The notes under the pieces are model-generated. The model worked only from the letters and a program-made list of their open reading frames with translations, did no database searches and was not told the origin of the DNA. A stretch of DNA of 64,000 nt from Salisaeta longa DSM 21114 (GTDB lineage Bacteria > Bacteroidota > Rhodothermia > Rhodothermales > Salinibacteraceae). The position numbers and the translations under genes are program-made. Within the stretch, counting starts at the first letter, position 1, and each line of letters starts with the position of its first letter. This document shows positions 31,278-55,550 of this stretch, one piece after another. The stretch is taken from positions 2,395,001-2,459,000 of the forward strand of contig NZ_ATTH01000001.1 in NCBI RefSeq assembly GCF_000419585.1, in the 5' to 3' direction.

Positions 31278-31483
31278 AACGCGTAGCAATCTATCGGGAA
31301 GGGGCGTGACGCGCAACAGGCGACACGCGGTCTAAACAGCTTGTGTACTATCTCTCATCCTTGGAAAGGGTTCGGGGCGGACGCTGGTTTCATGCCCTCT
31401 GCAAATAGATGCGGGCATGTTGCGTGATGCAATTCAACGTGTCTTTGCTATCCCGTTGGCCCATCACACAATCCTTCAAAAGT

Positions 31484-33955
31484 ATGCCTGTTTCTGCTAC
31501 GCCGCGTTGGATGGCCTACCCCGCCCTCTGGCTGGCAGGGGCGCTTGCTGCTAGCGTGGCTGCTTCAAATGTTTCTTTTACCGTCTCGGTGTGGCACTGG
31601 GGCGCGCTTGCGCTTGTGGGCGGTGCCGTGGCCGGGGCAGCGCAGTGGATCGACCGGCAGCGGCTGGTATCACTCGCTCCGCTGCTTCGGTTTTGCGTCG
31701 CCTTGCTGCTGTTTTTTACGATGGGCGGCGCACGCATGGCCATCTACCAACGCCCGGCGCCACACGCGCTCCGTTCCTACGTTCCAGACCGTGGCCCGGA
31801 ACGCAGCATTCAGCTTCGCGGCGTGGTCGATGCCCCGCCGTCCCGATCGTCGCGGGCGTTTCGGTTTACCATGCGAGCGACGGCGTGGCAAGGACCGCTG
31901 GATACCCTGGCCGTCACGGGGCGCGTTCAGGTGACGCGGTGGGTCGATGATCGCGCGGCTCATCCCGATGTGCGGGATGGGACCTGCGTAGTGGTCACAG
32001 GACGCCTTCAGCGGCCGCCTACGCGCCGCAACCCAGGGGCCTTTGACTACCGGGCCTATCTGGCGCGGCGTGGCGTGTACTGGACGATGACGCTTGAGCG
32101 GGCGTCTCTGCTGCAGACCTGCGGCACTGCGGCTACGTGGCTCGACGCTGCAGCGTACGCGGCCCGCGCCCATGTACGCGGCGCGATCGACGCCTTTGGG
32201 CAGCGCCCCACCACGCAAAGCGTCCTCCGTGCGCTTCTCCTTGGCGACCGCTCGGGGCTCTCGGCACAACGAGAGGCCCAATTTGCAGCAACCGGGCTCA
32301 TGCACCTGCTGGCCGTGTCGGGGTTGCACGTGCTGCTGGTGGGCATGGTTATCTTTTTGCTGCTCAAGCCGCTCCTGGTGCGCGCGTCCATGCCGTGGGT
32401 CACCATGCAGTGGGTGCGGGCTGTGAGTACCATTGTGCTGCTGGGCACCTACTTGCTTCTCACGGGCATGCAGGCCTCGGTGGTGCGTGCCGTGGTCATG
32501 GCCATTATTTTCATTGGCGGCGCCATCATTCAGCGATCCTCCACCGCGCTGAACAGCCTTGGCCTTGCCATGATCGTTTTGCTCGTGCTACGGCCTCCAA
32601 TGCTGTTCGACGTGGGATTTCAGCTGTCTGTTGCAGCCGTAGCGGGCATCGTGGTGTTGAACCCGGTACTGGTGGATGCACTGCCTACACGCTGGACGGA
32701 GGGCTGGTGGGGGCCGCACATCGTTACGGTCGTTACAACGTCTGTGGCTGCAACGCTGGCCACCGCGCCGGTACTGGCGGTGCACTTCGGACGCGTTGCG
32801 TTTGCAGGGCTGCTGCTCAATGTTCTTGCCATTCCCCTCACGGCGCTCGTCCTCTTAAGCGGCCTGTTGGTGGTGTGCTGCGCACCGGTGCCTCTGGCGG
32901 CGGGCGCGTTTGGCAGCACGGCCGATGCAAGCGTGCAGGGGCTGCTGTGGATTGTTGCGCGTGGGGCCACGTGGCTGCGATGGACCCTCTGGGAAACGCC
33001 GGCCTGGTCGTGGGTGCATATCCTCGCTTTTGGAGCAGGCCTCGGGGCGCTCGCGCAATGGCGACGGCCGCGCTGGCGCTGGGGGCTGGCCGTTGCATCC
33101 ATTGGCATCCTGGCTTGTGGAGCTCTCGCATCTGCTGTCAGGGTGGGAGACAATCCGCGCATGGATGCGGTGATGCTCGATGTGGGGCAGGGCGATGCGA
33201 TGTTATTCTCGTTCCCGAACGAACAGCACGTGCTTGTGGATGCCGGTCCCAAGACGCGCTTTACCAATGCGGGGGCCGCGGTGGTTGTCCCGTTCTTGAA
33301 GCGCCAAGGCATCACGTCGTTGGACGCACTGGTCATCACACACCCCGATGCCGATCACCTCGGTGGCGCGTTGTCGGTGCTTCGTAGCGTTGGCGTTCAG
33401 CGTGTCGTTCGCACGGAGTGGGCGTCGCGTAATCGTTTGATCGCGTCGTTTGAACGACTCGTCGATAGTTTGAAGGTGCCGGTGCGGTATGTAGAAGCTG
33501 GAGATACGCTGGATATCTCGTCTGCAATGGTGGAAGTGCTGGGGCCGCCACCGCGACGTCACACGTACGCGATGTCTGGGGACAATGAGCGCTCGGTGGT
33601 TCTGCGCATTGCATACGGCACCACGCAGTGGGTATTGCTAGGAGATGTGGAGCACCGGGGCGAGGGATGGTTGGTGTACCGGTACGGGGATGCACTGAAC
33701 GCTGATGTTGTGAAGGTTGCGCACCACGGCTCTTCAACAAGCAGTCGACTGCCACTGGTACGTGCTATCTCCGATGATTCGTCGCAGGTACGTGCACTGA
33801 TCTCTGCCGGTGTAGATAACCGATTTGATTTTCCAGCACCAACGGTCGTCAACCGTTGGGAGGAGCACGGCGCCGTCATTCGATCGACGAAGCACAGCGG
33901 AGCAATTTGGCTGCGAAGTGACGGGCGCAAGATTTGGCGTCGCCGGTGGCGCTGA
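31484..33955 (+). CDS. comEC: ComEC/Rec2-type DNA-uptake channel protein
   Basis: An 823-aa membrane protein with the ComEC architecture. After a two- to three-helix start (YPALWLAGALAASVAASNVS) come an OB-like segment (RSIQLRGVVDAPPSRSSRAF), the competence domain with AQFAATGLMHLLAVSGLHVL near residue 262 and about eight further helices. The C-terminal domain is metallo-beta-lactamase-like: MLDVGQGDAMLFSF near 566, THPDADHLGGALSV near 620 and KVAHHGSSTSSRLP near 745. It should form the inner-membrane channel for single-stranded DNA in natural transformation. All metal-binding motifs of the C-terminal domain are present. The gene ends 63 bp before the first DnaA box of the presumed origin. 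Confidence 0.93.
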   Translation: MPVSATPRWMAYPALWLAGALAASVAASNVSFTVSVWHWGALALVGGAVAGAAQWIDRQRLVSLAPLLRFCVALLLFFTMGGARMAIYQRPAPHALRSYVPDRGPERSIQLRGVVDAPPSRSSRAFRFTMRATAWQGPLDTLAVTGRVQVTRWVDDRAAHPDVRDGTCVVVTGRLQRPPTRRNPGAFDYRAYLARRGVYWTMTLERASLLQTCGTAATWLDAAAYAARAHVRGAIDAFGQRPTTQSVLRALLLGDRSGLSAQREAQFAATGLMHLLAVSGLHVLLVGMVIFLLLKPLLVRASMPWVTMQWVRAVSTIVLLGTYLLLTGMQASVVRAVVMAIIFIGGAIIQRSSTALNSLGLAMIVLLVLRPPMLFDVGFQLSVAAVAGIVVLNPVLVDALPTRWTEGWWGPHIVTVVTTSVAATLATAPVLAVHFGRVAFAGLLLNVLAIPLTALVLLSGLLVVCCAPVPLAAGAFGSTADASVQGLLWIVARGATWLRWTLWETPAWSWVHILAFGAGLGALAQWRRPRWRWGLAVASIGILACGALASAVRVGDNPRMDAVMLDVGQGDAMLFSFPNEQHVLVDAGPKTRFTNAGAAVVVPFLKRQGITSLDALVITHPDADHLGGALSVLRSVGVQRVVRTEWASRNRLIASFERLVDSLKVPVRYVEAGDTLDISSAMVEVLGPPPRRHTYAMSGDNERSVVLRIAYGTTQWVLLGDVEHRGEGWLVYRYGDALNADVVKVAHHGSSTSSRLPLVRAISDDSSQVRALISAGVDNRFDFPAPTVVNRWEEHGAVIRSTKHSGAIWLRSDGRKIWRRRWR

Positions 33956-34030
33956 AGCGATGCGGTATACGATGCTATACCGGTTGTATATCGTGTGGGC
34001 TGCCGAAGGATTTGGCAGTTATCCACAGCC

Positions 34031-34076
34031 CTAGGTGCTAGTCTAGGTCTCTAGAGAAGCTAGGTTGTTGTTGTTG
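34031..34076. repeat. CTAG cluster and GTT triplet run inside oriC
   Basis: CTAG occurs five times in 33 bp (34031, 34038, 34043, 34051, 34060), directly followed by GTTGTTGTTGTTG at 34064-34076. CTAG is strongly under-represented in most bacterial genomes, so the cluster is unlikely by chance. It lies just after the first perfect DnaA box. It may be part of the unwinding element or a protein-binding site; TAG repeats recall the DnaA-trio idea known from Bacillus origins, but the spacing here is not strictly triplet. Confidence 0.5.
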
Positions 34077-34435
34077 TAGGGGCTGTGGATATGTTGATAA
34101 CTTAGTTTTCCACAAGAGCGTGGCGTCATCTGACCCGTCTCACCAAAGTTATTAACAGAGTTATCCACAAAATCGAAGCGGTAGACCCCCGCTCTGCAGA
34201 TATAAACGGCGATTTGAGGTGAGTTATCCACATTTCGGTCGCAGCGGCTCCATAGCCCCGAAATAGCACTCACAAGTTATCCACATCGGGCGAAATGTTA
34301 ATAACTGTTAGTAAAGTGTGGATAACTTCGGACTTATCAACAGTCCGCTTCTGGGGGATGAGCGGATCGGAGTTATCCACACGTTATCCACAAGTTACCC
34401 ACAATTTGTCCACGCGTTATCCACATCGGGTGGGA

Positions 34436-34451
34436 GGTCGGTTTGCCGACC
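34436..34451. other. Hairpin between two phased DnaA-box arrays
   Basis: GGTCGG-TTTG-CCGACC is a perfect 6-bp stem with a 4-nt loop lying between the array that ends at 34425 and the one that starts at 34462. It may divide two DnaA-filament segments. The role is inferred. Confidence 0.4.
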
Positions 34452-34562
34452 ATGGGGCGAGTTATCCACACATTATCGACAGGTTATCCACACGGATCTG
34501 TCGGCGCGTGGTGCGGTTCATCGTACCCGTTGCTCTCTTGCACTCACGAATTTCTTCGCTCC

Positions 34563-35312
34563 ATGACCTTTGATTTGTCGGATCAGTCCGTTCTCATCAC
34601 CGGCGGCACGCGTGGCATCGGCCGCTCCATTGTAACTGCGGCCGCCGAGGCCGGCGCGCGCGTGGCGTTTACGTACCGGTCGTCGCACGAGGCGGCAGAA
34701 GAGCTCGTTGCATCGTTGGAGGCGCAGGGCGTCGAGGCGATGGCCCTGCAGGGCGACGTGGCAGAATTGGAGGCCGCCGAGGCGGCGGTGGCGTCGGTCA
34801 CGGACGCGTGGGGATCGCTGGATGTGCTCGTGAACAACGCGGGCATCACGCGCGACGGCCTGATGCTCCGGTTGAAGGAAGCGGATTGGGACGACGTGCT
34901 GGATACAAACTTGAAGGGGGTGTTTAACTTCTGCAAGGCCGCTTACCGCCCCATGATGAGCCAGCGGGCCGGCGCCATCGTCAACATTTCGTCGGTTGTC
35001 GGCGTGATGGGGAACCCGGGCCAAACGAACTACGCGGCTTCGAAGGCCGGGATCATTGGTTTTTCGAAGAGCCTCGCCAAGGAGCTTGCGCGCCGTAGCG
35101 TTACGGTAAACGTGGTAGCGCCCGGCTACGTGGCCACCGACATGACCGATGAGCTCAGCGACGACGCCCGCGAGGCGATGTTGGGCGCCGTGCCCCTCGG
35201 ACGTCCAGCCACGCCCGAGGAGGTCGCGCGCGCCGTGCTCTTCCTGGCCGACCCCGAGGCCCGCTACATCACCGGCCACGTGCTGCACGTAGACGGCGGC
35301 CTTGCGATGTAG
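34563..35312 (+). CDS. fabG: 3-oxoacyl-[acyl-carrier-protein] reductase
   Basis: A 249-aa classical short-chain dehydrogenase. The cofactor motif is TGGTRGIGRSI near residue 13, NNAGITRDGLMLRLKEADWD follows near 89, the catalytic serine is in IVNISSVVGVMGNPGQ and the tyrosine and lysine in NYAASKAGIIGF near residue 155; PGYVATDMTDEL is also typical. NNAGITRD with MxRMKxxxWD-like continuation is characteristic of FabG, the reductase of fatty-acid elongation. The ATG at 34563 starts right after the oriC region; the longer open frame runs through DnaA boxes and is not coding. No acpP or fabF is adjacent. Confidence 0.92.
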   Translation: MTFDLSDQSVLITGGTRGIGRSIVTAAAEAGARVAFTYRSSHEAAEELVASLEAQGVEAMALQGDVAELEAAEAAVASVTDAWGSLDVLVNNAGITRDGLMLRLKEADWDDVLDTNLKGVFNFCKAAYRPMMSQRAGAIVNISSVVGVMGNPGQTNYAASKAGIIGFSKSLAKELARRSVTVNVVAPGYVATDMTDELSDDAREAMLGAVPLGRPATPEEVARAVLFLADPEARYITGHVLHVDGGLAM

Positions 35313-47000: not shown

Positions 47001-48590
47001 TTATCGGGCGCGGAGTTCAATCTTGCGCTGAAGGTCTTCCACCATGTTGCGAAACTGCGTGTCGGTTTCGATCTGGTCTTCTACGGTGTTGTTGGCGTAG
47101 ATGACGGTGGAATGGTCGCGGCCGCCGAAGTGCAATCCGATGGTTTTGAGGGAGTGCTGGGTAAGCTGCTTGCAAAAGTACATGGCAATCTGCCGCGCGC
47201 GCACCACCTCACGCTTGCGTGTCTTGGCACGAATCAGGTCCTCCTCCACGTCCAGGTAGTCGCATACGATACGCTGAATCTCCTCGACGGAGAGGTTCAC
47301 CTGGCGGTCCTGAATCAGATCGCGCAGCACGTCTTTGGCCAGGTCGATGTCGAGCTCCCGCTGGTGCAGCGTGGAGTGGGCGAGCAGGCGGATGAGCGAG
47401 CCCTCCAGCTCCCGAATGTTGCTCTTGATGTTGTGGGCAATGAATTCGATGACTTCCTGATCGAGCTCGATGCCGTCGTCTTCGGCCTTGCGCTGCAAAA
47501 TGGCAATGCGCGTCTCCAGCCCGGGCGGCTGCACGTCGGCCGAGAGGCCCCACTGAAAGCGCGATAGCAGGCGCTCCTCGATGCCCTCAATGTCGCGCGG
47601 GGGGCGATCGGCCGAGAGGACGAGCTGCTTGCCGTTTTGGTGCAGGGCGTTAAAGATGTGAAAGAACTCCTCCTGCGTCTTCTCCTTCCCGCTAAAGAAC
47701 TGCACATCATCGACGATGAGCACGTCGATCTGGCGGTAAAACATCGAGAAGTCGCTCACGCGGTTGCGCTGAATGGCCTGCACAAACTCGCTAGTGAAGC
47801 GCTCGCTGGAGACGTAGAGGACGTTTTTTTCGGTGTAGTGGCTGTTTACGTAGTTGCCAATGGCTTGGATGAGGTGGGTTTTGCCCAACCCGACGCCGCC
47901 ATAAATAAGAAACGGGTTAAAGTTGGTGCCGCCCGGTTCCTGGGCAATGGCCCACGAGGCGCTGCGGGCGAGGCGGTTGCAGTCGCCCTGAATGAAGCGC
48001 TCGAAGACGTAGCTTTCGTTGAGCTGGCTGTCGATGTTGTTCTCCTGGATGCCGGGAATAGCAAAGGGGTTGCTCACCGGCGGCGCATCGGCCTTGGCAG
48101 CAGAGGCTTCAGCGTCATTGGTCGACCGCGCCGCCGAGGCGGTTTGGGGCGGCGTGGGCGTGGCGCGCGCATCGAGCGAGGCGTCGGACGATTCGTCGTT
48201 GGGCGCCGATGCGCCGGCGCCCTCGGACCACGGGACCTGCTCGTCGGCGGGGGGCTGCTCGTCCGAACGCCGCGCGGGCAGTTGCATCGACGCGCCATCG
48301 TGCGAGGGGTCGTCGGGGTTGTCTTGCTCAATGACCACGTCGTAAAAGAGGCGCCCCTGCGTGCCCAACACCTCGGTGACGGCCTTGCGCAGCATCGAGA
48401 AGTAGTGGTCTTCGAGCCACTCGTAGTAGAACCGACTGGGCAGCTGAATGGTGAGCTTCTGGAGGCCTTCCTCCTCACGCAGCGACTGCGCCTTCAGCGG
48501 CTTGAACCACGTCTTGTAGCTCTGCTCGCTGATCTGCGGGCGAATATGCGTGAGGCATTCCTTCCAAACCGATTCAGCCGAAGCATCCAT
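47001..48590 (-). CDS. dnaA: Chromosomal replication initiator DnaA
   Basis: A 529-aa protein with all four DnaA domains. Domain I covers residues 1-85 (VWKECLTHIRPQISEQSYKT; WFKPLKAQSLREEEGLQKLT). The domain II linker is Ala/Ser/Asp-rich, about 90-185. Domain III is the AAA+ core with Walker A GGVGLGKTHLIQAIG near 230 and Walker B VDVLIVDDVQFF near 292, followed by sensor residues in LLSRFQWGLSADVQPPGLET. Domain IV is the DNA-binding part with the signature GLHFGGRDHSTVIYANNTVE. It binds TTATCCACA boxes and opens the origin. The 386-bp upstream region has no perfect DnaA box, so classical autoregulation is not evident. The box-rich region lies 12.5 kb downstream. Confidence 0.97.
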   Translation of the reverse strand: MDASAESVWKECLTHIRPQISEQSYKTWFKPLKAQSLREEEGLQKLTIQLPSRFYYEWLEDHYFSMLRKAVTEVLGTQGRLFYDVVIEQDNPDDPSHDGASMQLPARRSDEQPPADEQVPWSEGAGASAPNDESSDASLDARATPTPPQTASAARSTNDAEASAAKADAPPVSNPFAIPGIQENNIDSQLNESYVFERFIQGDCNRLARSASWAIAQEPGGTNFNPFLIYGGVGLGKTHLIQAIGNYVNSHYTEKNVLYVSSERFTSEFVQAIQRNRVSDFSMFYRQIDVLIVDDVQFFSGKEKTQEEFFHIFNALHQNGKQLVLSADRPPRDIEGIEERLLSRFQWGLSADVQPPGLETRIAILQRKAEDDGIELDQEVIEFIAHNIKSNIRELEGSLIRLLAHSTLHQRELDIDLAKDVLRDLIQDRQVNLSVEEIQRIVCDYLDVEEDLIRAKTRKREVVRARQIAMYFCKQLTQHSLKTIGLHFGGRDHSTVIYANNTVEDQIETDTQFRNMVEDLQRKIELRAR

Positions 48591-48976
48591 ACGCTACACA
48601 GCAAGCAAGCCCGTGCGTACTGTCGCGCACCGGCGATGACGGAGATCAGTGAACTATGAGGCGTGGGGCACGACCCGATGGCGCAATCTTCCCCGAAGCA
48701 CAGGCGGGCCGCGTGCGGGAGACTCCTGAGAAACCGCTTCGTGCTGGCGACCGCTTGTTTTTGTAGCACCCTGGACGTCCCACGGTAACCATTGCACGGG
48801 CGAACGTCAAGATGCGTTCGTGCAGAAATAGTACAATCAAGAAAGACGTTGGAGCGGGCACTGCCTACCGTGCGTGAGGGCGCGCAGCGGTGCCGCGGCA
48901 AAGGCCGGGGCGAGTAGGCGGGAGCCGTGCGTCGGCCTTACGTTGTGTGCCGGACGCGTCCCACGAATTGCGTCGG
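48591..48976. promoter_or_regulatory. Upstream region of dnaA
   Basis: A 386-bp gene-free stretch. It holds an imperfect hairpin at 48793-48824 (TGCACG-CGAACG against CGTTCGTGCA) and an AT-enriched segment at 48825-48850 that could carry the dnaA promoter. No TTATCCACA box occurs on either strand, unlike the oriC region. I see nothing else in it. Confidence 0.4.
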
Positions 48977-49546
48977 TTAGGCCGTGTTGGCAGCCCGCTG
49001 GCGGGCAACCCCCAAAAGGAGGACGGCCGCGGCGCCGTACAGCGCAGCGTATAATCCGGTGAGGGCCAGGGCCTCAACGAGCGAGACGTGGACGTTGGGC
49101 ACGTACCCGGCGGCCCACGCTCCGGCACAGGTCCCTGCCAGGGCGCCGCACGTTGCGAGGAGCACGCGCCCCCCGGCGGTCGGCCGCCAGATCGCGACGA
49201 TACTCCCAACAAGCCCCAGCAACGCAGCCCCGCTGTACAGCGCATCGGCTGCGCTGTCGGTGACGTGCACGGCGGCGTTGGTCCACAGCAGAACGACCGT
49301 AGCGAGCAGCCCGAGCGCGATGCCCGCGCGATGCACACCGCGGTGCACGCGTCGCGCCGCGGCCTCGTACAGTGCCAACGGCCCAAACAGCAGCACACCG
49401 GCACAGACGAAGTCGCCGGCGGTCCAGTGGACCGCATCGGTGAAGGGCATCGCCGCAAGCGGCAGGAGCACGAGCAGCGTTGCTGTAATCCATGCGCCCA
49501 AGCGCCAAGACCAGGCGCGCGAGGCAGAGGGCATTATTGCGTTCAT
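48977..49546 (-). CDS. Predicted six-helix membrane protein
   Basis: The 189-aa protein has six hydrophobic segments, among them LGAWITATLLVLLPLAAMPF, DFVCAGVLLFGPLALYEA, ALGLLATVVLLWTNAAVHV, ALYSGAALLGLVGSIVAI, VLLATCGALAGTCAGAWAAG and ALTGLYAALYGAAAVLLLGV. No motif beyond hydrophobicity is seen and no family is recognised. It is unlike a transporter in lacking charged residues in its helices. The start ATG at 49546 precedes the first helix directly. Confidence 0.65.
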   Translation of the reverse strand: MNAIMPSASRAWSWRLGAWITATLLVLLPLAAMPFTDAVHWTAGDFVCAGVLLFGPLALYEAAARRVHRGVHRAGIALGLLATVVLLWTNAAVHVTDSAADALYSGAALLGLVGSIVAIWRPTAGGRVLLATCGALAGTCAGAWAAGYVPNVHVSLVEALALTGLYAALYGAAAVLLLGVARQRAANTA

Positions 49547-55321: not shown

Positions 55322-55550
55322 TGTGGATAACTTGTGGATAAGTGTGGGTAATGTATCGGGCACCGTCGCCTGTCCACGTAAGACGCCGCAGATCCGCGAT
55401 TCCGTGAAGATTCGTCATGATGAGCTAACTCTATTGTTTCCAGGGGTTTAGGTTGTAACCGTAGTGTTCCTTGCGGCTAGTGGTCGGGGCTTGCATTGGG
55501 CGGTGCCTCATGCGCAATTGTTTACGCAGCCCCACGGCCGGTGTGGATAA
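55322..55550 (-). other. Second DnaA-box group
   Basis: Three perfect boxes (TGTGGATAA on the + strand, TTATCCACA on the minus) start at 55322, 55333 and 55542; a near-box TGTGGGTAA starts at 55343. The first three are spaced 11 and 10 bp. All have the opposite orientation to the majority at oriC. The site could titrate DnaA, reactivate it, or serve as a secondary origin element. No CTAG cluster or long AT tract is next to it. Confidence 0.65.

Follow-up and report, generated by a model that had tools for sequence, protein, structure and literature searches.

In E. coli oriC, as described in PMC6070618 (citing Rozgaja 2011), two clusters of four low-affinity DnaA sites occur with a 2-bp separation between sites, and E. 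coli DnaA also binds pairs lying 2 or 3 bp apart at ChIP sites in vivo (PMC11317965). For DnaA dimers of T. maritima, the optimal gap is 2 bp between direct boxes and 4 bp between inverted ones (PMC10316083). The bacterial basal origin unwinding system, in turn, is composed of a DnaA-box pair, a spacer, and DnaA-trios (PMC8287927). No fitting origin study for Salinibacter or Bacteroidetes was found in the literature searched.

In the stretch of DNA analysed here (the window; 64,000 nucleotides, positions 2,395,001 to 2,459,000 of a 3.19-Mb contig), two runs of DnaA boxes, arrays 1 and 2, make up the fabG-side end of the box cluster at 34019 to 34492 (Table 1). Rematching in the window reproduced to the base the box positions, mismatch counts, and 11-bp steps reported by the first-pass annotation, as well as the hairpin that it had placed between the two sets: exact copies of TTATCCACA on the plus strand start at 34373, 34384, 34417, 34462, and 34484, units with one mismatch at 34395 (TTACCCACA) and 34473 (TTATCGACA), and a unit with two mismatches at 34406 (TTGTCCACG). 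The step from array 1 to array 2 is 45 bp, which is no multiple of 11.

Similarly to the E. coli arrays of the published site map, the sites share one orientation with 2-bp gaps (an 11-bp period), and a strong site ends a run of weaker ones, the middle units being weak in the relatives. On the other hand, the E. coli units are far from consensus whereas those of the window are near it, and E. coli has two oppositely oriented arrays, while both arrays of the window lie on the same strand. The published map is the basis of this comparison; a consensus search of E. coli oriC over all periods showed no 11-bp signal, as the sites diverge strongly from the consensus and the annotated interval ends before R4. 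The DnaA-oligomerising region of T. maritima resembles the window in its direct boxes at 2-bp gaps, and the likeness extends further in the relatives, where an inverted box follows the array at a 4-bp gap (in 13 of the 18 relatives that carry the array), which is the measured optimum and sets both geometries side by side. It differs in its box consensus; moreover, the array of the window has no inverted box 4 bp beyond it and is located ~300 bp from the probable unwinding element. The comEC side shares with the basal unwinding system a box pair, a 4-bp GC spacer, and a trinucleotide repeat, but the repeat of the window past its first triplet is CAA (3'-GTT-5'), and the 11-bp array is a separate module. 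The array is a long, clear case of the common 2-bp rule, that is, of an arrangement already known.

Table 1. Features of the window around the DnaA-box cluster; boxes, unit starts, and steps are from box matching
Feature	Coordinates	Strand	Remarks
comEC	31433..33955	+	Conserved origin neighbour in the family
DnaA-box cluster of the probable oriC	34019..34492	.	Flanked by comEC and fabG; includes 10 perfect boxes; lies in the interval of a skew switch
Perfect DnaA box	34019..34027	+	To the left of the repeats
GC spacer (gccc) followed by trinucleotide repeat CTACAACAACAACAA, reading away from the box pair	34065..34083	-	DnaA-trio-like
Minus-strand box pair	34084..34100	-	ATATCCACA at 34084, TTATCAACA at 34092; 8-bp step; family-conserved; belongs to the probable unwinding element
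One-mismatch DnaA box TTTTCCACA	34106..34114	+	
Perfect DnaA box	34161..34169	+	
Perfect DnaA box	34224..34232	+	In relatives, start of a conserved 8-bp/10-bp triplet
Perfect DnaA box	34277..34285	+	In relatives, another box 10 bp on
Perfect DnaA box, inverted	34317..34325	-	
One-mismatch DnaA box TTATCAACA	34334..34342	+	
Array 1, five units, 11 bp	34373..34425	+	TTATCCACA cg TTATCCACA ag TTACCCACA at TTGTCCACG cg TTATCCACA; starts 34373, 34384, 34395, 34406, 34417; step exactly 11 bp
Hairpin GGTCGG-TTTG-CCGACC	34436..34451	.	Between the arrays; own lineage only
Array 2, three units, 11 bp	34462..34492	+	TTATCCACA ca TTATCGACA gg TTATCCACA; starts 34462, 34473, 34484; step exactly 11 bp
fabG-like short-chain dehydrogenase	34563..35312	+	Not a neighbour in two relatives checked
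dnaA	47019..48566	-	Only full-length copy in the genome; ~13 kb from the cluster

The box cluster and the replication origin

The first-pass annotation had presumed that the cluster is the replication origin of the chromosome, and at the level of sequence this assignment is supported by several observations: (i) GC skew, obtained from 40 samples of 20 kb across the genome (resolution, ~40 kb), changes sign twice, at 2.42 to 2.46 Mb and at 0.82 to 0.88 Mb, about half the contig apart, and the cluster, at 2.429 Mb, falls inside the former interval, with the opposite switch, half a chromosome away, as the terminus; (ii) boxes are far above chance, with 25 carrying at most one mismatch in the whole window compared to 4.9 expected; and (iii) 10 of the 19 perfect DnaA boxes of the genome are concentrated in the cluster. 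At this resolution, the skew by itself leaves two candidate places, the cluster and dnaA, whose product has its N-terminal, ATPase, and DNA-binding domains. The cluster is preferred as the origin site because the boxes lie there, while none was found upstream of dnaA (window positions 48567 to 49100).

As for the flanking genes pointed out previously, comEC has held up as a neighbour across the family but fabG has not: the gene beyond the array is ribBA-like or pgi-like in the two relatives checked, and the relevance of fabG adjacency was dropped for this reason. The hairpin, for its part, shows no sign of a function: it is confined to the own lineage, and 5 of 200 shuffles fold equally well (z = -2.34).

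Several relatives have, in addition to the comEC cluster, 11-bp box pairs within ~400 bp upstream of dnaA (e.g., G054:C7:49454, G056:C2:229264, and G065:C35:15767), the two sites being ~10 to 35 kb apart where they share one contig (G056, G057, and G054). Many relatives in family f1 possess at least two DnaA-like matches, often two full-length DnaA proteins; the window genome has one.

Spacing of the boxes and its maintenance in the family

When the boxes of the cluster with at most one mismatch were kept and the free bases between them redistributed, the four adjacent 2-bp gaps had a probability of 0.0008, or of 0.008 if any single gap value was accepted. Random placement of the plus-strand boxes gave P = 0.0002 for four 11-bp pairs at up to one mismatch, and six 11-bp pairs at up to two mismatches were reached in 0 of 20000 trials. 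Under the same random placement, perfect boxes only, which form one 11-bp pair, gave no significance (P = 0.15), so the regularity depends on including units with one or two mismatches; their inclusion is justified by their conservation in relatives. Scoring the best four units at every period from 8 to 16 bp (maximum, 36 matches) resulted in 33 of 36 at 11 bp in the window.

Among 114 genomes of the order, comEC could be placed in 89; within the family, the 760 bp after it were examined, and almost every genome read has a DnaA-box cluster there. Reading the comEC flank of 23 family relatives revealed in 18 of them, spanning genera g2, g3, g4, g5, g8, and g9, a four-unit array with 11 bp as its sole strong period, scoring 27 to 32 of 36, with any other period at 24 or less; its counterpart in the window is the last four units (units 2 to 5) of array 1. 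Three relatives (G064, G065, and G058) have comEC and a box cluster but no recognisable 11-bp array, G061 has no box cluster after comEC, and G076 has two good units only at the array place. In units 2 to 5 of nine representatives, the mean column entropy is 0.40 bits for the box and 1.01 bits for the linker. Unit positions 1 and 2 do not vary and position 4 hardly varies, even in poor boxes such as TTATGCCCC and TTATCCAGA, and the identical unit 4 of the window and of G054 (TTGTCCACG) supports the register assignment. These comparisons show that the 11-bp period is maintained within the family; the first-pass annotation had looked to related genomes for a period that is kept while the intervening bases vary, and this is what the relatives display. 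They retain weak array units, whereas the units of the window are mostly near consensus, and array 2 has no counterpart among them in the family origin alignment.

In the same alignment, the origin is made up of several conserved modules. Starting at comEC, a perfect box is followed by a region of high AT content in relatives, the trinucleotide repeat, the 4-bp GC spacer, and two minus-strand boxes; in relatives, the middle contains boxes at 8 and 10 bp and the far end the 11-bp array. Counting pairs with up to two mismatches in 15 aligned origins yielded 26 at 8 bp, 26 at 10 bp, and 32 at 11 bp, and since these steps are about equally common, the 11-bp phasing does not extend to the entire origin. 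Compared to its relatives, the window is missing several of the 8- and 10-bp partners and has stronger array units plus an extra three-unit array past the hairpin. Its comEC-side element (34065 to 34100) combines a box pair and a short spacer adjoining the trinucleotide repeat, which reads GAT and then four times GTT (3' to 5'); the first triplet alone fits the DnaA-trio rule (middle adenine), and the window has no run of three or more trios of this kind. Canonical trios (CTACTACTA) are found in G057, G058, and G035. The box triplets at 8 and 10 bp (TTTTCCACGTTTCCACAgCTATCCACA), in which boxes at the 8-bp step overlap, are conserved in relatives and degenerate in the window (34224 to 34285).

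Outside the family, spacing was surveyed in a cross-bacteria sample of species genomes with three perfect boxes at free gaps of 0 to 14 bp (at least 80 loci). Among the 80 loci listed, same-strand gaps up to 300 bp from the triples were most often 3 bp (73) or 2 bp (51), followed by 11 to 15 bp, with few of 4 to 10 bp; 10 of these 80 have a perfect triple with two successive 2-bp gaps, and 11-bp runs of at least four units are rarer, occurring in 4 of them. Within the phylum (296 genomes, own excluded), the commonest gaps between perfect-box pairs are 2 bp (13), 3 bp (10), and 11 bp (9).

Readings of the phased array

Considering the above, the phased boxes are very probably the module on which DnaA oligomerises, at the comEC-distal end of an ordinary oriC that depends on DnaA. 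A 9-bp site followed by 2 bp would accommodate one DnaA molecule per 11 bp, all in the same orientation, and adjacent ATP-DnaA molecules may join head to tail on the array, with DnaA anchored at the strong sites and the weaker in-register units at 34395, 34406, and 34473 probably filled cooperatively thereafter. Strand opening would probably occur ~300 bp away, at the comEC-side element with its box pair and trinucleotide repeat; it is placed there because the layout resembles the basal unwinding system (PMC8287927), although just one triplet of the own repeat obeys the trio rule. This misfit, like the missing 11-bp array in G064, G065, and G058, speaks against the reading. The array could then aid opening through a larger complex or help helicase loading at that site.

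The first-pass annotation had suggested both a DnaA filament laid down in register and a distinct origin design. The former, taken as a head-to-tail oligomer, appears to be the best reading of the array, but the latter is not supported. The idea that a strictly one-turn-phased array of strong boxes nucleates a DnaA filament alone, unlike known origins, draws on the five units of the own array, three of them perfect, on the conserved period, and on the rarity of 11-bp runs of at least four units, seen in only 4 of the 80 loci listed. It is nevertheless very improbable: 2-bp gaps are reported for E. coli oriC (PMC6070618) and are the optimum in T. maritima (PMC10316083), gaps of 2 to 3 bp are the commonest in the cross-bacteria sample, the array constitutes one end of the origin, the remainder is not 11-bp phased, with the two sets 45 bp apart, and relatives hold conserved 8- and 10-bp steps.

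A titration or regulatory task of the array outside origin function, for example in fabG transcription, is in our view very improbable, for the array persists while the downstream gene changes (fabG, ribBA-like, or pgi-like) and lies within a few hundred base pairs of other origin boxes in all array-bearing relatives, even though it forms the last part of the cluster, immediately upstream of fabG, and short box arrays also occur off the origin in the window genome. Slippage could in principle copy an 11-bp unit, and array 2 is limited to the own lineage, which would agree with regularity as a byproduct of tandem duplication; such an origin of the array is extremely improbable, given that the own linkers mostly differ, that the box columns are more conserved than the linkers across genera, and that units 2 to 5 keep one register.

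With these arrays, the 2-bp spacing rule of DnaA in E. coli and T. maritima is seen to be kept across genera in a third lineage, and a conserved origin architecture becomes available for the family, on whose origins the literature searched contained no study. The units form a natural gradation from weak to near consensus, all in one register, on which the role of site strength in timing could be tested. It is conceivable, although unlikely, that in the own lineage an ancestral weak, regulated array was converted into a near-consensus one and gained a second array, and that the boxes on the dnaA side, the inverted box, and the 8- and 10-bp modules were lost. In that case, initiation would take place on a filament platform of high affinity, with less influence of the ATP state of DnaA. 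If true, the near-consensus conversion would amount to re-wired origin control.

DnaA-box elements outside the origin

Two further box clusters, at window positions 55322 to 55550 (minus strand) and at G000:C1:2205202-2205432 (locus L278), are situated ~21 kb and 224 kb from the origin, respectively. Each consists of a double box at 11 bp and, 209 or 211 bp to its 5' side, a perfect box on the same strand; the genome has no other off-origin double boxes (up to one mismatch). The 209/211-bp arrangement was not found in 26 family relatives.

A satellite element, consisting of a DnaA box (often an 11-bp double) followed ~30 to 60 bp on by ATAAC(G/A)GA and, in several copies, by a downstream TC(C/T)GTTATT plus a further box, is present at L278, L280, L274, L276, L277, L283, L284, and other loci. 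The pattern TATCCACA-N28..58-ATAACNGA, drawn from G056, G063, G066, G074, and the own genome, matched 52 times in the order, where 40 of 113 genomes carry it (21 of the 27 that belong to the family); the reversed control gave 2 matches. The element is possibly a titration or DnaA-reactivation locus (datA/DARS-like) that would act with some partner protein. Shared neighbour genes tie the own copy to that of G054, and the copy of G054 to those of G066 and G068; in G066 and G067, the copies lie ~18 and 194 to 217 kb from the origin.
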